From assembly GCA_021809435.1 (NCBI GenBank), contig JAKBAD010000002.1, forward strand, positions 124,001 through 188,000: 64,000 nucleotides of DNA, given 5' to 3'. Every line of letters starts with the position of its first letter. Within the stretch, counting starts at the first letter, position 1. Made by a program: the position numbers and the translations under genes. This document shows, piece by piece, positions 10,058 to 20,074 of this stretch. The DNA is from Pseudomonadota bacterium. Its GTDB lineage: Bacteria; Pseudomonadota; Alphaproteobacteria; Acetobacterales; Acetobacteraceae. The notes under the pieces were generated by a model. That model was not told the DNA's origin. It was given only the letters and a program-made list of their open reading frames with translations, and did no database searches.

Positions 10058-10765
10058 TTACGGCTGGGCCGCGATGAGCAGCGCCAGACCCGCTATTGTG
10101 GCGGTCTCTGCCCGCAGGATGCGAGACCCCAGGGACACGCGCATCACCTGGGGTTTGGCAGCGATAGCTTCAAGTTCGGCATCGGTAAAGCCACCCTCCG
10201 GCCCGACCATGAGCGCGCAGGGGCCGCTGGCCGCGCCCAGCAGGGGGGAGTCGCGGCGTTCATCGGCCACGAAAAGCGGGCGGTTGGGCCAGGTTTGGAG
10301 GAGCTGCATGACCGGCACGGGCGGGCGGATTTCGGGGACATCCTGCCGCTCACATTGCTCGGCGGCCTCGATGGCGATGGCGCGCAGGCGCTCGAGATTG
10401 ACATGGTCGGCCTGGGTGCGGGCGGTGATGATGGGCTGGATGACGGCGGCGCCAAGCTCGGTGGCTTTTTCGACCACCAGATCGGTTTTGGCGCGCTTGA
10501 GCAGGGCGAAGCAGGCCCAGGCATCGGGGGCGGGGTGTTGCGGGCGGGTTTGGGCGCGGGCCGTGAGGGTGACGCGCTTTTTTGAAATTTGCGTGATTTC
10601 GGCCCGCCACTCGCCATTTTGGCCGTTGAAGATGCGGCAGGTTTCGCCCAGCTCGGCGCGCAGCACGGTGGCCAGATAATGCGCCTGGGGCTCGGGCAGG
10701 GGCAGCTCGGTGCCTTCTGCCAGGGTGGCGACGGGGGTATAGAGGCGAATTGACGCGATGCTCAT
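10058..10765 (-). CDS. rsmE: 16S rRNA (uracil-1498-N3)-methyltransferase
   Basis: SPOUT-class methyltransferase that methylates U1498 of 16S rRNA using S-adenosylmethionine. 235 residues from the ATG at 10765. The N-terminal PUA-like part contains EPQAHYLATVLRAELGE. The C-terminal trefoil-knot region has the diagnostic VGPEGGFTDAELEAI and SLGSRILRAETA motifs at about 180-225. The same reading frame stays open far upstream, but those residues lie under ubiA on the other strand and are not part of the protein. It is divergent from ubiA with 18 bp between the starts, and lies just upstream of gshA. Confidence 0.95.
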   Translation of the reverse strand: MSIASIRLYTPVATLAEGTELPLPEPQAHYLATVLRAELGETCRIFNGQNGEWRAEITQISKKRVTLTARAQTRPQHPAPDAWACFALLKRAKTDLVVEKATELGAAVIQPIITARTQADHVNLERLRAIAIEAAEQCERQDVPEIRPPVPVMQLLQTWPNRPLFVADERRDSPLLGAASGPCALMVGPEGGFTDAELEAIAAKPQVMRVSLGSRILRAETATIAGLALLIAAQP

Positions 10766-10783
10766 GAGAGGCCCAATAGCACC

Positions 10784-11689
10784 ATGAACGGTTATACGGA
10801 TATACGCCGCCATGGCTGGGTGGCGAAGCTGCCCGCCAGTTTCGAGCCTTATATTCTGCTGGCCCGGTTTGACCGGCCAATTGGGATTTGGCTGCTGTTT
10901 TTGCCCGGGTTGTGGGCGATTTGCCTGGCCGCGCCGGGGGTTTGGCGCGGGCTGTGGCTGGCCATGCTGTTCGCGCTGGGCTCGGCGGTGATGCGCGGCG
11001 CGGGCTGCGTGGTGAACGATATTTGGGACCGGGAGCTGGACTCGCGGGTGGAGCGCACCAAGGGCCGGCCGCTGGCGGCGGGCCATGTGACGCTGGCGCA
11101 GGCGGTTTTGTTTCTGGCCGCCTTGTGCCTGATTGGGCTGCTGGTGCTGCTGGCGCTGCCGCCGGTGGCGCGCTGGCTTGGCGTGGGGTCGCTGGTGCTG
11201 GTGGCGCTCTACCCCGCGGCCAAGCGGGTGACATGGTGGCCGCAAATGGTGCTGGGCTTTACCTTTGGGTTTGGCGCGCCGCTGGGATTTGTGGCCGCGC
11301 ATGGCGGCTTGGGCTGGGGCATGGTGCCGCTTTATGCCGGGGTGATTGGCTGGATTCTGGGCTATGACACGATTTATGCCCACCAGGACCGGGCCGATGA
11401 CGCGATTGTGGGGGTGAAATCGACCGCGCGGCTGTTTGAGCACAATACCAAGCCGTTTTTGGCGGTGTGCTATGGCGCGCTGGTGGCGATGCTGCTGGTG
11501 AGTTTTGGGCTGGCCGGGCTGAACCCGTTTGGCTACGCGCTGCTGGTGCCGCCGGTGTTTTTGCTGGGCACGCAGATTTATACGCTCGATATTCACGACC
11601 AGGCGAAATGTTTGCGGCTGTTCAAGGCCAACCGCGAGGTGGGGCTGCTGGTGGCGGCGGCGATTTTGGTGGGGAGGATGAGCCTATGA
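10784..11689 (+). CDS. ubiA: 4-hydroxybenzoate polyprenyltransferase
   Basis: Integral membrane enzyme attaching the polyprenyl tail to 4-hydroxybenzoate in ubiquinone synthesis. 301 residues with about eight to nine membrane segments. The first Asp-rich motif is NDIWDRELD at 78-86, directly followed by RTKGRPLAAG. The second is DTIYAHQDRADD around residue 195. These bind Mg-diphosphate. The stop overlaps the start of the next gene as ATGA. Confidence 0.95.
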   Translation: MNGYTDIRRHGWVAKLPASFEPYILLARFDRPIGIWLLFLPGLWAICLAAPGVWRGLWLAMLFALGSAVMRGAGCVVNDIWDRELDSRVERTKGRPLAAGHVTLAQAVLFLAALCLIGLLVLLALPPVARWLGVGSLVLVALYPAAKRVTWWPQMVLGFTFGFGAPLGFVAAHGGLGWGMVPLYAGVIGWILGYDTIYAHQDRADDAIVGVKSTARLFEHNTKPFLAVCYGALVAMLLVSFGLAGLNPFGYALLVPPVFLLGTQIYTLDIHDQAKCLRLFKANREVGLLVAAAILVGRMSL

Positions 11690-12423
11690 GCGGACGTTTG
11701 CAGGGTAAGGTGGCGCTGATTACCGGCGCCACGGCGGGGATTGGGCTGGCGACGGCACGCAAATTTGCCGCCGAAGGGGCGCGCGTGCTGTTGAGCGGGC
11801 GCAATGAACAGGCCGGCACGGCGCTGGCCGCCACGCTGGGCGGGGCGTTCATGGCCGCCGATCTGAGCGCGCCAGACAGCGCGACGCGGCTGGTGGACTG
11901 GGCCGAAGCCACGGCCGGGCGGCTGGATGTGCTGGTGAACAATGCCGGCATATTGTTTCAGGGCGATGCGCTGGCCTGCACCGATGCCCAATGGGACCAG
12001 ACGATGCTGGTGAATGTGACGGCGGTGTTCCGGCTCTCGCGCGCGGCGCTGGGGTTGCTGGCACGCACGCGGGGGGCGATTGTGAATGTGGCCTCGGACT
12101 GGGGGCTGGTGGCGGCGGACGCGGCGGTGGCCTATGGCACCAGCAAGGGCGCGGTGGTGCAGCTGACCCGCTCGATGGCCAGGGACCATGCGCGCCAGGG
12201 CGTGCGGGTGAACGCCGTGTGCCCGGGCGATACCGACACCGCCATGCTGCGCGCCGAAGCCGGCAGCGCGGCGCGCATGGCCGAGCTGGCGGCGGCGATT
12301 CCGCTGGGCCGGCTGGGCCGGCCCGAGGATGTGGCGGCGGCGATTGCGTTTTTGGCCTCCGACGAGGCGAGCTTCATCACCGGCGCGGCGCTGGCGGTGG
12401 ATGGGGGGAATTCGGCGGTGTGA
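11686..12423 (+). CDS. SDR-family oxidoreductase
   Basis: Classical short-chain dehydrogenase/reductase of 245 residues. The nucleotide-binding TGATAGIG is at 13-20, NNAG at about 85-88, a serine in NVASDWG near 137, and the catalytic YGTSK at 150-154. The C-terminus GAALAVDGGNSAV is the usual 3-oxoacyl-reductase-like ending. The start ATG overlaps the ubiA stop (ATGA). Its substrate is unknown; coupling to ubiA hints at quinone or isoprenoid metabolism, but this is weak evidence. Confidence 0.88.
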   Translation: MSGRLQGKVALITGATAGIGLATARKFAAEGARVLLSGRNEQAGTALAATLGGAFMAADLSAPDSATRLVDWAEATAGRLDVLVNNAGILFQGDALACTDAQWDQTMLVNVTAVFRLSRAALGLLARTRGAIVNVASDWGLVAADAAVAYGTSKGAVVQLTRSMARDHARQGVRVNAVCPGDTDTAMLRAEAGSAARMAELAAAIPLGRLGRPEDVAAAIAFLASDEASFITGAALAVDGGNSAV

Positions 12424-12474
12424 GGGAGAGAATATTTTTACTGACAAGGAGAATTAGAGACGTTGCACAAAAGC

Positions 12475-12500
12475 GATGGGTAGCGCTGCGCTCACCCATC
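12475..12500. repeat. REP-like palindrome (GATGGGT...ACCCATC)
   Basis: Nested inverted repeat with arms gatgggt/acccatc around agcgctgcgct, followed by ctacg. Similar GATGGGT-x-GCGCAGCGC-x-ACCCATC palindromes are widespread intergenic repeats in proteobacteria (from memory). It lies 52 bp past the SDR stop, at the left boundary of the AT-rich island. The remainder of 12424-12619 holds no recognisable gene. Confidence 0.6.
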
Positions 12501-12619
12501 CTACGCTTGCTTAAGCGTTTCACTGAATACGCTGAGTGCGGTCGAGCTTGTTCGTGAGGCAATTTATACCGCCCAAGCTTAACAGGTCAAGCAAAATATT
12601 ATTTTGAAATAAAGGCTCG

Positions 12620-12799
12620 TTACGTGGCGGATTCTAAGACTTCCTTAACAGCTTGTCGTATTTTTTCTGCATCTCTGATTGCTATTGCGTCTATCTGATC
12701 TTCTTCTGTTTCAGTAAGACGCCAAGCGTTTTGCCCGGTACGTTTTTCTAAGTGCCCACTTTCACCGTCGAAATCCTCTATCTTTTTCTTTGCAGCCAT
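12620..12799 (-). CDS. Small charged protein of unknown function, third gene of AT-rich island
   Basis: 59 residues from the ATG at 12799, chosen because aaggag lies seven bases upstream; a longer in-frame start at 12868 would overlap the previous gene by more than 50 bases and has no such site. The protein begins MAAKKKIEDFDGESGHLEKR and ends in a predicted amphipathic helix, AIAIRDAEKIRQAVKEVLES. No domain is recognised. It follows the Ntn-hydrolase-like gene by 16 bp on the same strand, so it is probably co-transcribed and could be a partner, regulator or antitoxin-like protein; nothing in the sequence proves any of these. Confidence 0.6.
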   Translation of the reverse strand: MAAKKKIEDFDGESGHLEKRTGQNAWRLTETEEDQIDAIAIRDAEKIRQAVKEVLESAT

Positions 12800-12815
12800 G
12801 GCTTTGCTCCTTGGT

Positions 12816-14108
12816 TTATGGTGAGCCGAATTGTCTTGCAAAATATCTTTGATTGAACTCTTTGTCAAAATAATGTTTTCGTTTTATCCATACAAAACCT
12901 TCACTTTTTGAAATAACTGCAATATCTATAAGGCCTCCTACGGTCTCTTTTTCCGCCGATACATGACGTTTAATTGTTGTGAGATTAACCAGAGATTCAG
13001 CCATGTGCGCCAACTCTTGTTTCGGCATGAACCTCACCATGTCTAGGATGCCAGACTTAAACTTCTCTTCTTTGAATTTTTCCGCTCTATTTTGAAATTC
13101 GTTGACCAAAACTGTTCTGGCAGAACGCATTTTACGTTTTGCGATAACCTTATCAGCAGGCGTTCCAGAAAAGTGCTGATCTATCAAATTATCGCCAAAA
13201 TCTTGAATGGCCTTCCTCATACCGACTCTGAGATATCTCTCGTACCTTGGGTCAACTCCGTCGAGAAATCTGTCAACCATCTCATGTTGAGCGAAAGGAA
13301 TAACCTCCGCCCCCAAGGGTAGATTTGCAATTTCCACAGGTTTTGATTCGGAAATTTTTAACTTTCCACAGACGATGCCGTCCAGTTCAATCGATTGAAC
13401 AGAAGGAAAAATTTCATCATCTCCAAAACCAAAAAAAACCATTCCGGTACTGAATGCCGAAAAATGATTTCTAACCAAAGCGAGGCCGCAAATTTTTTCA
13501 AAACATGCGGATGCTTTTTGTGTTAATTTCCATCCGCCCGTTGCCATTTTTAATGCGTCGAGATGCTCTTTTTGGTAAACGACACAAAGCTTTGTTTCTT
13601 TTTCAGAAGAAAAACCATTGGCTTTATTTTTTATTGCCAAATCTTCTATACGCATCTCCAAAATCGGCATTAAAACTTCGTTGTTAAATTTCGGACGCGA
13701 GAATTTGGGATCCTTCACGAGGCGCTTGCGCCACTCGTTGTTAATTTCATCCCAAACCTCGTTATATGCGGAAAATAATATTCTGAAAACGTTTATACTT
13801 TTCTCTCTATCTGAGATCGGTAGTTCAGTCAGCAAGAATTTCATAAAATCTTTTGCATAATCTTCGGTTTTTTGGAAAGATTGTCCGTTTCTTTTTGATC
13901 TGTACAGCTTTATTACCGTCGAGAGCGGAATGCCCATAAACTCAAGGCCACCATATATCATTAAACCGACAGGTTGTTTAATGCTGAGTTCAAAAATCTT
14001 ATCAACGCTGTTGTAAATTTTTTCTGCGCCGTTTGAATCAATGGTAACAGCACTATCCGCCGCAACGGCAACGGCGGACTTATTCAGAATGACGACTTCA
14101 GCGGTCAC
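12816..14108 (-). CDS. Putative N-terminal-threonine (proteasome/HslV-fold) hydrolase-like protein
   Basis: 430 residues. The first 70 residues read like a proteasome beta-subunit or HslV: MT at the start, so Met removal would expose Thr2 as nucleophile; strand VVILNK; strand AVAVAADSAVT with D18 at the place of the proteasome Asp17; then EKIYNSVDKIFEL, whose K30 or K37 could match Lys33; and VGLMIYGGLEFMGIPLSTVIKLYR, resembling the HslV AGFAG strand and helix. A later strand-like motif is GFGDDE at 227-232. At 430 residues it is about twice HslV length, so it carries an extra C-terminal region rich in charged helices. AT-rich base composition contrasts with its neighbours and suggests horizontal transfer. 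It overlaps the upstream small gene by 11 bp. The fold assignment is an inference from pattern; no peptidase activity is known to me for this family. Confidence 0.68.
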   Translation of the reverse strand: MTAEVVILNKSAVAVAADSAVTIDSNGAEKIYNSVDKIFELSIKQPVGLMIYGGLEFMGIPLSTVIKLYRSKRNGQSFQKTEDYAKDFMKFLLTELPISDREKSINVFRILFSAYNEVWDEINNEWRKRLVKDPKFSRPKFNNEVLMPILEMRIEDLAIKNKANGFSSEKETKLCVVYQKEHLDALKMATGGWKLTQKASACFEKICGLALVRNHFSAFSTGMVFFGFGDDEIFPSVQSIELDGIVCGKLKISESKPVEIANLPLGAEVIPFAQHEMVDRFLDGVDPRYERYLRVGMRKAIQDFGDNLIDQHFSGTPADKVIAKRKMRSARTVLVNEFQNRAEKFKEEKFKSGILDMVRFMPKQELAHMAESLVNLTTIKRHVSAEKETVGGLIDIAVISKSEGFVWIKRKHYFDKEFNQRYFARQFGSP

Positions 14109-14340
14109 GTTTCCACCTCGCCGCAGCCGCTTTGGCCGCGATCTCTTTGCGTTGTTCTGGCGTTAGGCTATCGGCCCGCGCGCGTCCGCCTCGCTGTCCT
14201 CCCAGACGCCCAAGGGCTACGGCAGCGGGGTTCTTCTCGTGCCCATGAGGGTTGTCCTCGACCTCTCCGGTGGCTATATCAACCATCAGTTTAGCCAGTT
14301 CATTCGTGTCCGTTGGGCGTTTGCTTGAGCGGTTTGGCAT
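14098..14340 (-). CDS. Small basic KGG/histone-H1-like protein, first gene of island
   Basis: 80 residues from the ATG at 14340, which has an aggat ribosome site; a longer open frame from 14433 has no support. The C-terminal half, NPAAVALGRLGGQRGG then RARADSLTPEQRKEIAAKAA and ending ARWKRDR, matches the small Gly-Gly/Arg/Lys-rich bacterial proteins often labelled histone H1-like or KGG-repeat. The N-terminal half is acidic to neutral (DTNELAKLMVDIATGEVEDN). The role is unknown; nucleic acid binding is plausible from the basic C-terminus. It overlaps the Ntn-hydrolase-like gene by 11 bp, so the two are translationally linked. Its GC content is nearer the chromosomal average than that of the following gene. 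Confidence 0.68.
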   Translation of the reverse strand: MPNRSSKRPTDTNELAKLMVDIATGEVEDNPHGHEKNPAAVALGRLGGQRGGRARADSLTPEQRKEIAAKAAAARWKRDR

Positions 14341-14474
14341 GGGTGATCCTATGCGCATCTCGGCACAGATTCCTAGCCTAGAAATGTTACCCGACCCAAC
14401 TTGGGGTGGATGGGAAATGGTTGAACACAACAACGTGACGTCATCTAATGTCTGCCGCGCCGCTCATGCAATGG

Positions 14475-14480
14475 TATAAT
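14475..14480 (+). promoter_or_regulatory. Possible -10 box (tataat) for thi operon
   Basis: A perfect tataat lies about 75 bp before the TPP riboswitch in an otherwise GC-rich region. The -35 region is not convincing (ctgccg at the expected distance), so this is only a candidate. Confidence 0.3.
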
Positions 14481-14551
14481 TTCAAACTAACCCACTACCC
14501 CCCTCGCCTGCCGCTTGACGAGGGGTGGGGGATGGGGTGAAAAAGGGCGTA

Positions 14552-14621
14552 TCGGGGTGCTCGCGTTGTGCGGGCTGAGATTATACCCGTTGAACCTGCC
14601 TGGGTAATGCCAGCGAAGGGA
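14552..14621 (+). promoter_or_regulatory. TPP riboswitch (thi-box)
   Basis: Thiamine pyrophosphate-sensing aptamer. The conserved pieces are in order: cggggtgc, then the pyrimidine-sensing gggctgaga, then acccgttgaacctg, then the gggtaatgccagcgaaggga tail. It ends eight bases before the ATG of the binding-protein gene, and its last bases (aaggga) are the best Shine-Dalgarno for that ATG. TPP binding would therefore be expected to hide the ribosome site, giving translational control. A GC hairpin at 14500-14525 precedes the aptamer. Confidence 0.95.
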
Positions 14622-14628
14622 TTTGACC

Positions 14629-15579
14629 ATGATTTCACGCCGTTCGTTTGTTCTGTCCTCGGCCGTGCTGGCCGCGCCCGCGATCGCGCGGGCGGCGACC
14701 GAGCCGTTCACGCTGCTGCTGGACTGGTTTGTGAACCCCGACCATGCGCCGCTGTTCGCGGCGAAAACCTGCGGGGCGTTCGCGCGCGCGGGGCTGGCGG
14801 TGACGATGACCGCCCCCACCGACCCGGATGTGCCGCCCCGGCTGGTGGGCGCGGGCAAGGCCGATGCTTGCTTGAGCTATCAGCCCCAGCTTTACCAATT
14901 TGTGGATAAGGGCCTGCCGGTGAAGCGGGTGGCGACGCTGATTAACCAGCCGCTCGATACCCTGACCGCGCTGGGGGAAAGCGGAATTAAGACCATCGCC
15001 GATCTGAAGGGGCGCAAGATTGGCTATTCGGTCGAGGGGTTTGAGACCGTGCTGATCGGCACCATGCTCAAAAGCGCCGGGCTGACGCTTGGCGATGTGA
15101 CGCTGGTGAATGTGAATTTCAATCTGGTGACCGCGCTGCAGGCGAAAGAGGTGGATGCGGTGATCGGCACGTACCGGACTTATGAGGATATTCAGCTCGC
15201 CCAGGATGGGCTGGCGCCGGTGATCTTCGCGCCCGAGGATTATGGGGTGCCGCGCTCGGATGAGCTGATTGTGCTGGCCAATGACAAGAGCGTGGGGGGC
15301 GACAAGATGCGCCGCTTCGTGGCCGCGCTGGGCGAGGGGGTGGCGGCGCTGAAGAGCGATCCGCGCGCCATGCTGGCGGGGTTTTTGAAAGATAACCCCA
15401 GCCTCAATGACAAGCTGGACCTGGCCTCGTGGGGGGCGCTGGTGCCGGGCTGTTTCGCGCCCGAGCCGGGCGCGCTGGATGCGGCGAAATATCGGCGTTA
15501 CCGCGATTTTATGCACGCGAACGGGCTGATTGCCCGCGCGCTGCCGCTGGATGACTACGCCGTGGCCACCAAAGCCTGA
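14629..15579 (+). CDS. thiY: Thiamine-precursor ABC transporter, substrate-binding protein (NMT1/THI5 domain)
   Basis: Periplasmic binding protein of 316 residues with the NMT1/THI5-like fold used for formyl-aminomethylpyrimidine (HMP) or thiamine uptake. The signal peptide starts ISRRSFVLSSAVLAAPA with a twin-arginine-like SRRSFV, suggesting Tat export. The mature start FTLLLDWFVNPDHAPLFAA is the standard ThiY pattern for the pyrimidine pocket. The ATG at 14629 is preferred over a TTG two codons upstream because of spacing to the riboswitch tail. It heads a three-gene operon with ATPase and permease. Confidence 0.9.
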   Translation: MISRRSFVLSSAVLAAPAIARAATEPFTLLLDWFVNPDHAPLFAAKTCGAFARAGLAVTMTAPTDPDVPPRLVGAGKADACLSYQPQLYQFVDKGLPVKRVATLINQPLDTLTALGESGIKTIADLKGRKIGYSVEGFETVLIGTMLKSAGLTLGDVTLVNVNFNLVTALQAKEVDAVIGTYRTYEDIQLAQDGLAPVIFAPEDYGVPRSDELIVLANDKSVGGDKMRRFVAALGEGVAALKSDPRAMLAGFLKDNPSLNDKLDLASWGALVPGCFAPEPGALDAAKYRRYRDFMHANGLIARALPLDDYAVATKA

Positions 15580-15583
15580 CATT

Positions 15584-16312
15584 GTGGGCCCGGCCCCTGG
15601 CATTGCCATAACCGGGGCGACGCTGACCTATGACGGGGCGGCGGTGTTCGCGGGGGTGGATTTGACGCTGGAAGCCGGGCGCCTGAGCGCCCTGCTGGGG
15701 CCGAGCGGGGTGGGCAAGACCAGCCTGCTGCGCGCCATTGCCGGGCTGGAGACGCTGGAGGCCGGGACCGTGCGGGCCAGCGATGGCGCGCCCCTGGCCG
15801 GGCGGGTGGCGTGGATGGCGCAGCGCGATTTGCTGCTGCCCTGGGCGGATGCGCTGAGCAACGTGACGCTGGGCGCCAGGCTGCGGGGGGAAAAGCCCGA
15901 TGCCGGGCGCGCCGAGGGGCTGCTGGCGCGCGTGGGGCTGGCGGGGAAGCGCCGCGCGCTGCCGGGCACGCTCTCGGGCGGGGAACGCCAGAGGGTGGCG
16001 CTGGCGCGCACGCTTTATGAAGATAAGCCCGTGGTGCTGATGGATGAGCCGTTCTCGGCGCTCGATGCCATTACGCGCGCGCGGTTGCAGGAGCTGGCGG
16101 CGGAAATGCTGGCCGGGCGGACTGTGCTGCTGATTACCCATGACCCTTGGGAAGCCTGCCGGATTGGCGAGGCGGTGTATGTGCTGAGCGGGCGGCCGGC
16201 CACGCTCGGGGCGCCGCTGGTGCTGGACGGCGCGATACCGCGCGCGCCCGATGACGAGGCGGCGCTGCGCGCGCAGGGGCGGTTGCTGGCGCGGCTGGAG
16301 GTGGGCGCGTGA
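15584..16312 (+). CDS. thiZ: Thiamine-precursor ABC transporter, ATP-binding protein
   Basis: ABC ATPase of about 242 residues energising the importer. Walker A is GPSGVGKTS, the Q-loop is in MAQRDLLLPWADALSN (typical of the nitrate/sulfonate/ThiZ group), the signature is LSGGERQRVALAR, and Walker B is VVLMDEPFSALD, followed by the H-loop THD. The GTG at 15584, four bases after the thiY stop, gives a natural N-terminus; an ATG at 15551 inside thiY is an alternative. The stop overlaps the permease start as GTGA. Confidence 0.9.
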   Translation: MGPAPGIAITGATLTYDGAAVFAGVDLTLEAGRLSALLGPSGVGKTSLLRAIAGLETLEAGTVRASDGAPLAGRVAWMAQRDLLLPWADALSNVTLGARLRGEKPDAGRAEGLLARVGLAGKRRALPGTLSGGERQRVALARTLYEDKPVVLMDEPFSALDAITRARLQELAAEMLAGRTVLLITHDPWEACRIGEAVYVLSGRPATLGAPLVLDGAIPRAPDDEAALRAQGRLLARLEVGA

Positions 16313-17043
16313 GGCGGGGGCTGGCCTTGGGGGCGCTGCTGCTGGGCGCCTGGTGGGGGGTGAGCGCGCTGGGGCTGGTGCCCGATTTCATGCTGCCCTC
16401 ACCCGCCGAGGTGGCGCTGGCCGGGTGGCGGAACAGCGCGTATCTGGCCCAGAATGCCGTGGTGACGGGGAGCGAGATTTTGCTCGGGCTGCTGGGCGGC
16501 ACCTTGCTGGGGGCGGCGGCGGCGGTGGTGATTGCGGCCTCGCGCGCTTTGCAGCGCTGGCTGATGCCGCTGCTGGTGGTTTCTCAGGCGGTGCCGGTGT
16601 TCGCGCTGGCGCCGCTGATGGTGCTGTGGCTGGGGTTTGGCCTGGCCTCGAAAGTGGCGCTGGCGGTGCTGGTGATATTTTTTCCGGTGACGGCGAATTT
16701 TTTGGACGGGCTGCGGCGCACCGAGCCGGGATGGCTGGATTTGGCCGCCACCATGGGCGCCAAGCCGTGGCGCGTGCTGCTGAGGGTGCGGCTGCCCGCC
16801 GCGCTGCCGGCGCTGGCCTCGGGCGTGCGGGTGGCGGCGGCGGTGGCGCCAATTGGCGCGGTGCTGGGCGAATGGGTGGGGGCTTCGAGCGGGCTGGGCT
16901 ATGTGATGCTCAACGCCAATGCGCGCATTGAGACGGCGCTGATGTTTGCCGCGCTGGTGCTGCTGGCGCTGATGAGCGTGGCGCTTTATGTGGCGGTGGA
17001 CCGGGGCTTGCGGGCTGCTTTGCGCTGGAGCCCGGGAGGTTAG
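16309..17043 (+). CDS. thiX: Thiamine-precursor ABC transporter, permease
   Basis: Inner-membrane permease of 244 residues, BPD_transp_1 (SsuC/TauC/ThiX-like) type, with about six membrane segments. An EAA-like loop is present at DLAATMGAKPWRVLLRVRLPAALP. The start is GTG within the GTGA overlap with the ATPase stop. The TAG stop is the first triplet of the palindromic element at 17041-17088. It completes the riboswitch-controlled importer. Confidence 0.9.
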   Translation: MRRGLALGALLLGAWWGVSALGLVPDFMLPSPAEVALAGWRNSAYLAQNAVVTGSEILLGLLGGTLLGAAAAVVIAASRALQRWLMPLLVVSQAVPVFALAPLMVLWLGFGLASKVALAVLVIFFPVTANFLDGLRRTEPGWLDLAATMGAKPWRVLLRVRLPAALPALASGVRVAAAVAPIGAVLGEWVGASSGLGYVMLNANARIETALMFAALVLLALMSVALYVAVDRGLRAALRWSPGG

Positions 17044-18376: not shown

Positions 18377-20074
18377 TCAAAGTAGCTGATCGACATTCGC
18401 CAAAGTCGTATTCGTCAGCGGTGGAGACTTAAGCAAGTCCCGCGATAGGTCTGGATCCGGGATGCTTGTTTTAATCAACGTATCTAGCCTGTCGAACCAA
18501 TCACCTTCGTTCGAGGCAAAGAGGTTATACAACGCCTCGTTGCGGCTCTTGCAACACCACTCTTTGTACTTTGCGCCGCAGTACTTTGCTGCGGCCGTCA
18601 TGATGTGCCAACGAAGCTTGGAGTACTTGCCATCGAACCGCTTATTCGAGGTGAGCATCCTCAGACGATAGTGGCAGAAGCAGGCGGTATAGTAATCCTC
18701 TTCCGGCTTTCCCGCATGGAAAACCTCAGACAGTAGCTCTCCTGTGAGGCGATTTGGGTAACGACTGGCGAGATCAGGCCGCATCATCACCGTCGCAGCA
18801 TAGCATCGTGCTGTCTCCCTGACATCGAAAATCCTGACCGGAGAGACATTTTCCGGCCCATATTGACCTTTTCGGCGTTCGAAGTAGAGCCGATTGGCTT
18901 CGCCTGCGCCACGAGCATTAAAATATCGCTCCAAATCGCGAAGTATTGTCATAGTAGCGACGAACTGATCGTCTTCCACCTTAGATTGTCGGTTCGTCGC
19001 TCGGACAATATCATCGATCACGGTAGGGTCATCAGCCTCAATCAGCTTCACCATCAGACTCACCGTGTCATCCGTTTGATCGTCAAACGCGATAAGCACG
19101 TTCGATGTCTGACATCCGTTTACGATCTGGAAATCCCTAATGTAGATATCCTGACCGGCAGGCCGAACGCTCGTGGCAACGATGGTTACCCCATTGTTCA
19201 TTAGACCAAATCGCGATTTTTTGTCAGCATCTCCAAGAGTTCCTGCAATTTCGGCGTTCACGTCAGCATCGACACCGAGGAAATCACGCACGTTTTCTTC
19301 GAAGAGCTTTTTCCGAGGCAGTCCGTGCTGATCCTTGAGGATTGCCTGAATGAAACTTCGCGCCTTCACCGTGGCTACATACGCGTTGTTGATGTTCTGA
19401 GCCGCCGGAAATGGCGCATACCCGACGGTCGCTAGGCTGGCTTCGACAGGGCCGTCAGCCGCGAGCCAATACTCGTGAATCACGTCGCGATGGGCTTTAA
19501 CTAACTTTGTGTCATTCGAATAACCCAACGCCCTAATCGCGATTAATCCAGCAGCGAAAGCTGCATTGATTTCCTCTGCACCAGTCTCCGGCGCAGCAGT
19601 GAAGAAGTATGCGTGTAGGTCAGGAAGGCCGCCTCTTATACGGCCAATGTTCCTGAACAGCAGCTTGAACATATCTTTGAAATCCGCCAAAAATCGGCTA
19701 TGTGGCTGCTGAGGTGCCTCGGACAAATAGTCTGTGATCGCCGCGACAAAAGAGTCGATCTCCACCTTCGACCAAGTCGTGGACCGCTTCGCTTGTGTCA
19801 GGACAACCGTGACATGAAATTCTCGACGTGAAGACTTGAAGATTTCTTCCAGTTCATCAGCGGAGAAAACTGCCCGGTCGTCAAGAAAAAGAAGTGCACC
19901 GTCGATCCCCGGATCAGGACCCTCGTAGACCAAGTCCGTCGCTTCAACCTTGTCGGCGGAGTAGCAGGCAAAGGCGCAGTACGCGGTGAAGGCTTCGAAG
20001 TTTTTTGCTTCGTCGAAAGGGGCGGCAAAATTTGCGCAGAAGGTGTCGAAATAAGACCTTGTAACCAGGTGCAT
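18377..20074 (-). CDS. AIPR-family abortive-infection protein with nuclease-like N-terminus
   Basis: 565 residues. The centre carries the AIPR (abortive infection phage resistance) signature: LFEENVRDFLG, then FGLMNNGVTIVA with NNG at 293-295, then DFQIVNGCQTSN with QIVNGCQT at 316-323. The N-terminus has a restriction-endonuclease-like pattern: PGIDGALLF with D58 and, after a strand, LTQAKRS with Q94 and K96, matching the D...QxK core of PD-(D/E)XK nucleases. So it is probably a stand-alone phage-defence effector that cuts nucleic acid; defence is known for the family, the activity here is inferred. GC content is lower than in its neighbours. It sits alone between 28-bp direct repeats with no methylase, toxin or recombinase next to it. 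Confidence 0.85.
   Translation of the reverse strand: MHLVTRSYFDTFCANFAAPFDEAKNFEAFTAYCAFACYSADKVEATDLVYEGPDPGIDGALLFLDDRAVFSADELEEIFKSSRREFHVTVVLTQAKRSTTWSKVEIDSFVAAITDYLSEAPQQPHSRFLADFKDMFKLLFRNIGRIRGGLPDLHAYFFTAAPETGAEEINAAFAAGLIAIRALGYSNDTKLVKAHRDVIHEYWLAADGPVEASLATVGYAPFPAAQNINNAYVATVKARSFIQAILKDQHGLPRKKLFEENVRDFLGVDADVNAEIAGTLGDADKKSRFGLMNNGVTIVATSVRPAGQDIYIRDFQIVNGCQTSNVLIAFDDQTDDTVSLMVKLIEADDPTVIDDIVRATNRQSKVEDDQFVATMTILRDLERYFNARGAGEANRLYFERRKGQYGPENVSPVRIFDVRETARCYAATVMMRPDLASRYPNRLTGELLSEVFHAGKPEEDYYTACFCHYRLRMLTSNKRFDGKYSKLRWHIMTAAAKYCGAKYKEWCCKSRNEALYNLFASNEGDWFDRLDTLIKTSIPDPDLSRDLLKSPPLTNTTLANVDQLL

Follow-up and report, generated by a model that had tools for sequence, protein, structure and literature searches.

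Within the window (the whole stretch of 64,000 nucleotides that was analysed) three coupled open reading frames lie on the minus strand between 14340 and 12620, and the sequence-only reading of this DNA, which had proposed them, was right that they are real. The gene furthest upstream (14098..14340) encodes an 80-residue basic protein of KGG/LGG type and overlaps by 11 nt the start of a GTG-initiated gene (12816..14108) for a 430-residue, proteasome-like N-terminal-threonine hydrolase that fits the PMI-4 type described below. A small partner gene (12620..12799), for the 59-residue protein P0003, begins 16 nt past the enzyme stop. These genes occupy a variable region (12427..14513) that runs from a gene on its left flank, which from our reading we take to be SDR-like, to the leader of a TPP riboswitch; the riboswitch itself (14543..14638, plus strand) belongs to the adjoining NMT1/THI5-like gene and is part of the right flank, outside the module. 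The base counts given earlier are also right (20/60 G+C at 13621-13680 and 45/60 at 12301-12360). The description of an AT-rich island of three genes holds for the enzyme gene (39.8% G+C) and the 59-residue gene (42.8%) but not for the KGG-like gene, which is close to the 64.0% of the window; because that gene has 61.3% G+C, the AT-rich block consists of two of the three genes.

The AlphaFold2 model of the 430-residue enzyme, based on 115 of 126 alignment rows (one X-containing row and ten others were omitted for length), has a pLDDT of 93.8 and a pTM of 0.91. When the model was compared with the PDB by Foldseek, the best match was a 20S beta subunit (E 5.5e-5, probability 1.00), four matches had E<=0.001, and Anbu stood at rank 9. 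The TM-scores of the best match are low (0.27 by query and 0.53 by target, rmsd 20 A), and they are low too in the Foldseek viral library, where the top match is a phage model named "Proteasome beta type-2 subunit"; we read these low values as a consequence of the helical insertions, and the fold claim therefore leans also on the catalytic triad and on the model's own confidence. The proteasome-type N-terminal-threonine fold that had been suggested for this protein is thereby supported as a prediction. In the model strands 21-25 and 28-32 are joined directly, and helices 62-72 and 81-94 are present as H1/H2 (H1-H4 were assigned from the order of elements). The first insertion follows H1/H2 (helices 100-132, 138-158, 170-177, 179-190 and 197-212), and the second lies between H3 and H4 (helices 287-312 and 317-359) and is followed by the last core helix, 363-383. 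The C-terminal region that had been called unrecognisable is, in the model, the second half of the Ntn fold together with the helical insertions at about 100-212 and 287-359. A separate C-terminal domain of unknown type was considered and rejected, since strands 221-272 and 394-409 are predicted to complete the Ntn fold.

Nor do we retain the term "undescribed peptidase". The features of the enzyme fit those of PMI-4 (Proteasome homolog with Multiple Insertions 4), a family named in 2021 by Fuchs, Alva and Lupas (PMC8665760), and we therefore place it in that family, an assignment made from the described features and not from reference sequences such as HDY66466.1. PMC8665760 lists 22 new proteasome-like families, none with a function; PMI-4 is the largest in its table (501 sequences at 90% identity), which records it from Euryarchaeota, phages and many phyla of bacteria. 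PMI-3 has both insertions too, but the table does not give phages for it. Among the papers listed by our literature searches, judged by title and the start of the abstract, PMC8665760 alone deals with PMI-4; later papers cite it (e.g., PMC13022661). PMC12724215 was considered as a further paper on the family and set aside, since its Gifsy protein is an ATPase. A full-length sequence match (E 2.1e-104) links the enzyme to phrog_5990, a family of phage proteins whose function is unknown. Searches with it against Pfam (up to E 1), NCBIfam and PADLOC gave nothing at a meaningful score, and no PDB entry matched by sequence. We note separately that a shorter protein of 280 residues with the same N-terminal pattern (MTIAIAVQVHDGVVLASDSATT...) occurs at L020/L023 (G137) and may represent another proteasome-like family.

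The triad was assessed in 24 sequences, namely that of the window and 23 relatives collected without a motif filter; the longest ORF begins further upstream in several of them, and for these the start was placed at the conserved (M/V/I)-Thr. Thr2, Asp18 and Lys37 are invariant in 24/24, with Asn9 likewise among the invariant positions, and thus the Thr2 and Asp18 singled out earlier are not only present in this protein but are both kept in every one of its motif-free homologues. A viral scan with the 430-residue protein as single query gave no match; a profile built from the 24 sequences recovered 336 relatives from genome contigs and 112 stretches from viral ones, and the best 80 of each were retained (160 loci). 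At the aligned position these loci have ATG (139), GTG (11), TTG (9) or ATT (1) as start codon, and the residue that follows is Thr in 159 and Ser in 1, which excludes a coincidental Met-Thr. Three of the 160 loci were dropped for early stops (L041, L092 and L101). Across 158 aligned rows, reduced to 126 (window included) once near-copies at 90% identity had been removed, position 2 is Thr in 157 and Ser in 1. The conservation of Asp18 in the 158-row set is circular, the scan pattern having contained ADS. As for the lysine, previously left as K30 or K37, Lys37 is found in 158/158 rows and Lys30 in 153/158, and because of this difference conservation favours Lys37 as the putative catalytic residue. 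The sole Ser at position 2 belongs to L179 (207-1496), where an N-terminal nucleophile is still possible, and the apparent ATT start to L007 (1501), where the conserved ITAEIAILN begins.

The two small genes differ in how faithfully they accompany the enzyme. To the question, raised earlier, of whether both always travel with it, the answer is that the downstream gene is at its place in 109/119 relatives and the KGG gene in ten relatives. In these ten (L009, L037, L038, L071, L076, L080, L099, L106, L181 and L187) a homologue of the KGG protein (P0002) ends just inside the enzyme start; they are all the strong KGG matches (E <1e-9) within enzyme loci besides the window's own. L099 is from a planctomycete, L181 and L187 are viral contigs, and the remaining named ones are alphaproteobacterial. 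A looser KGG pattern flagged 12 of 124 loci (window included), three of the hits being long unrelated ORFs, and the genus also has KGG relatives that stand alone. Of the two small genes, KGG is an optional part of the module and the one downstream of the enzyme its constant part.

The constancy of the downstream gene is positional. A same-strand ORF of 45-100 codons starting between -60 and +30 of the enzyme stop is present in 109/119 relatives as compared to 158/720 control ORFs, where the 119 are the usable members of 125 non-redundant relatives (the other 6 end too soon past the gene) and the controls are other long ORFs within the same loci. This is the arrangement of a two-gene unit with a constant small partner, as in toxin-antitoxin pairs. 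Six of the ten loci called partner-less have a like frame of 34-40 codons past the stop (L173, L178, L180, L183, L189 and L190, that of L180 being counted without a start-codon check), and in L080 a 37-codon ORF overlaps the enzyme stop; L063, L081 and L109 have no recognisable partner frame after it. The frame is unannotated in E. coli L236, L241 and L235 (34, 34 and 49 codons, respectively) and several phage and plasmid records list its product as a hypothetical protein. In ten close pairs, hand-picked from 145 pairs counted, dN of the small ORF is 0.13-0.34 and dS at least 0.95 (saturated in three) in 10/10, and because dN is so far below dS the small ORF is, on this comparison of sequences, coding and under purifying selection. 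Together with the position counts this excludes the view of it as noise. The same ten pairs all show more nonsynonymous differences in the small ORF (0.12-0.28 of sites) than in the enzyme (0.06-0.16).

Single-linkage clustering of 110 partners (window included) gave one cluster of 45, nine smaller clusters that together hold 33, and 32 unclustered proteins. The pattern of the main cluster is Y-x-S-x-x-E ... FP ... DP-x-x-x-G-x-x-LA, and every match of the small partners to Pfam was below cut-off. An AlphaFold2 model of one partner, that of L079 rather than P0003, is helical with a pLDDT of 81 and a pTM of 0.35, the latter a low global confidence. P0003 itself joins no cluster; it is weakly alike to the partners of L039 (E 0.046) and L038 (E 0.058), and because this likeness is weak its equivalence to the other partners rests on position.

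The enzyme gene is found in 17/385 genomes of the class, the window's own counted, in 0/37 other genomes of the same genus and, by partial nucleotide match to one probe, in 23/5426 E. coli genomes. It is also present in 10 plasmid records and in 13 phage records, 9 of which come from Streptococcus phages or satellites and include near-copies. The idea that the module moved as a unit is borne out to the extent that the genes travel together and that relatives lie on phages, satellites, plasmids and viral contigs. In 56/71 genome loci and 44/47 viral loci the enzyme gene has a G+C content lower than that of its flanks by over 5 points, with the opposite in none; of 338 control ORFs taken from the genome loci, 6.2% show such a drop. 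At the site of the module a sister species (G020) carries a different AT-rich gene for 272 residues (L232 3417-4235), between flanks that are 89-91% identical on both sides; this gene has no Pfam or PADLOC match, and its RDKFLAH stretch resembles a HEPN-type motif. In G016 the flanking blocks are 49 bp apart and the module and the SDR-like gene are both missing, and in G011 about 0.9 kb of unaligned sequence separates the blocks. A quick tree of 78 rows has 27 changes of phylum label as against a shuffled mean of 48 and minimum of 18; archaeal rows are nested among bacterial ones, and the row of the window belongs to a supported group together with alphaproteobacterial rows. Rampant transfer across phyla is not shown by this tree, in which grouping is largely by phylum. 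One record, CP131057.1 (386508-387759), has a PMI-4 relative split over two reading frames, possibly a broken copy, whose pieces were kept separate.

In a few prophages and satellites the enzyme is variable cargo. For instance, in E. coli L236 and L241 it lies directly behind an HTH_3 repressor-type gene, between a YdaT/YdaS-type pair and recE/recT, and four other genomes with the same backbone have in this slot KilA-N and a hypothetical protein, HicA/HicB and others, two hypotheticals, and one hypothetical, respectively (6 genomes were viewed of 122 matching a 6.5-kb stretch, many of the 122 over a small part). Nine upstream genes picked from the 47 viral loci were then compared, along with that of L236. 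In 5/9 the upstream gene is of the repressor-type HTH_3 (L164, L166, L173, L180 and L189), two of the five also having Peptidase_S24 and one passing the CI-repressor cut-off; the scores for L173 are identical to those for L236, and the two are not independent. Of the other picked genes, that of L192 is HTH antidote-like, one is DinI-like just below cut-off and two are without a match. The enzyme gene runs against its lytic neighbours in E. coli L235 and Stenotrophomonas BUCT708; a Providencia phage has it on the same strand as Q and the lysis genes, between the two. Its place in streptococcal satellites is integrase-distal, following a gene pair that we take to be HigBA-like (the HTH member of L192 is the one tested), and the related satellites Javan16, Javan99 and Javan595 are without the enzyme there.

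A defence role would be consistent with such positions. BstA, which has a KilA-N-like domain and is a proven prophage defence, is located behind cI (PMC8585504), and in a functional screen 12/21 defence systems lay in intact prophages (PMC9519451). Prophage cargo slots hold non-defence genes also, which is a point against this reading. The known defence models of PADLOC gave no match for the module, and we found no general enrichment of defence islands among its 143 nearest genome neighbours (77 loci, crude longest-ORF calls, raw counts). Few of these neighbours match PADLOC models, and among the best 25 of 93 such models the top tallies are of 3 members (RmrA, capH and HTH_VI), with single restriction genes. 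In the best 25 of 125 Pfam families housekeeping functions predominate, five matches to IS1 transposase head the list, and no HslU-type AAA+ gene is included. None was recognised by eye either among the ORFs at 10500-17000 of the window. Two neighbours deserve mention in their own right. An AIPR (abortive infection) family protein is encoded about 4 kb from the module (18377-20074, minus strand, E 1.8e-43), in its own patch of lower G+C (0.52-0.56), and is suggestive only; on a Rhizobium gallicum plasmid (L035 7944-11751) a group comprising a multiubiquitin-domain protein, a ThiF-type adenylyltransferase and a Clp protease lies about 1.4 kb beyond the PMI-4 relative.

The analysis shows by computation a proteasome-type fold with its triad conserved, a small gene constant in place, the signature of AT-rich cargo and, in a few prophages and satellites, variable slots; that the module is "defence-type", as suggested earlier, we infer. 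The reading we favour, to which we give a little less than an even chance, is that of a mobile cargo module in which a PMI-4-type threonine hydrolase is controlled by a small partner, sometimes joined by a KGG protein, and which probably acts against phages. A more specific version, held more tentatively, is that PMI-4 and its small partner form an immune module of the proteasome family, borne by prophages, satellites and plasmids, with the enzyme held or aimed by its co-translated partner and released on infection; as far as our searches show it would be the first such module from this family. Removal of the initiator Met would expose Thr2 as the nucleophile, and the helical insertions would hinder double rings of the HslV kind and might give a smaller assembly. 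The small, helical, faster-evolving partner would bind the enzyme, most likely as an inhibitor or a target-selecting adaptor produced by coupled translation. There are precedents elsewhere for a small inhibitor whose gene comes right after that of its protease, for instance the staphostatins. The pair might be expressed in the lysogen and act on incoming phage once infection disturbs it, with the enzyme cleaving phage or host proteins and exclusion or abortive infection as the result. All in all we regard the module as a good lead, inexpensive to test, that has a fair but less than even chance of proving to be a new kind of immune module.

Alternatively, the enzyme might be a peptidase that works without ATP and removes damaged or unfolded proteins, either as housekeeping or as lysogenic conversion, the small protein being an assembly factor and phages spreading the peptidase because the host benefits. 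Its occurrence beside housekeeping genes in many bacterial and archaeal chromosomes would suit such a role, and Fuchs et al. (PMC8665760) raise protein-quality-type functions for the homologues they describe, for which they saw no partners of the AAA+ type. We nonetheless consider this unlikely: the enzyme is patchily present, as the counts for the class, the genus and E. coli illustrate, it carries an AT-rich cargo signature, and a partner that changes faster than the enzyme would be atypical of an assembly factor.

We think it less probable again that the enzyme is a protein ligase or specific processing enzyme, with the small protein as a substrate or tag cleaved or transferred by Thr2, or that the gene serves the phage itself, for instance in processing phage proteins or in tuning the repressor or induction. 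For the former speaks connectase, a proteasome relative that ligates instead of degrading (PMC8665760), as does a partner constant by place and variable by sequence, in which one proline of an FP/FFP motif is invariant in 27 aligned members of the 45 in the largest cluster. The motif [FY]F-x(0-2)-P occurs in 29/109 partners as against a shuffled mean of 1.8 and a highest value of 6 in 200 shuffles, a count inflated by related rows and for a motif chosen after the sequences had been viewed; it is absent from P0003 and from 80/109 partners, and the enzyme model has the H1/H2 helices and not the S3/S4 insertion of connectase. Service to the phage would account for the enzyme gene adjoining a repressor-type gene in some prophages, being near lysis genes in others and lying within the structural region of one Porphyromonas phage. 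It would account less well for an enzyme that is missing from related satellites and prophages, whose gene is antisense to both neighbours in 8/39 viral loci and which is also found on plasmids and at chromosomal loci without evident phage neighbours. Each of these two ideas seems to us improbable.

If the defence reading is true, the proteasome family has a role in phage immunity besides protein turnover, and comparison with known systems indicates where the module would stand. Like BstA, the enzyme can occupy the accessory-gene position behind a prophage repressor. RexAB likewise lies behind a prophage repressor. Both differ from the module in belonging to other protein families, and for BstA defence has been shown. 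Connectase, like the enzyme a proteasome relative, offers by analogy only a case of non-degradative, partner-specific chemistry, and differs in structure in that it is without H1/H2 and has a two-helix S3/S4 insertion, the reverse of the enzyme (both connectase features are from PMC8665760). With HslV, BPH, Anbu and the 20S beta subunits the enzyme shares the Ntn fold and the catalytic triad, the 20S subunits and Anbu being the nearest solved folds; it is about twice their length, has two helical insertions and matches no Pfam or PDB sequence significantly. Closest is PMI-4 as described, which likewise combines the proteasome fold with the Thr/Asp/Lys triad, has one insertion following H1/H2 and another separating H3 from H4, and is found across many bacterial phyla, archaea and phages. 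The difference is one of context: PMC8665760 reports genomic context hinting at a specific function for none of its families, PMI-4 included, whereas here the enzyme has a constant small partner, sometimes unannotated, is at times preceded by a KGG gene, and in some prophages and satellites sits in a variable cargo slot. As far as found in the literature searched this context is new, and with it a possible role of PMI-4 in phage defence becomes testable.
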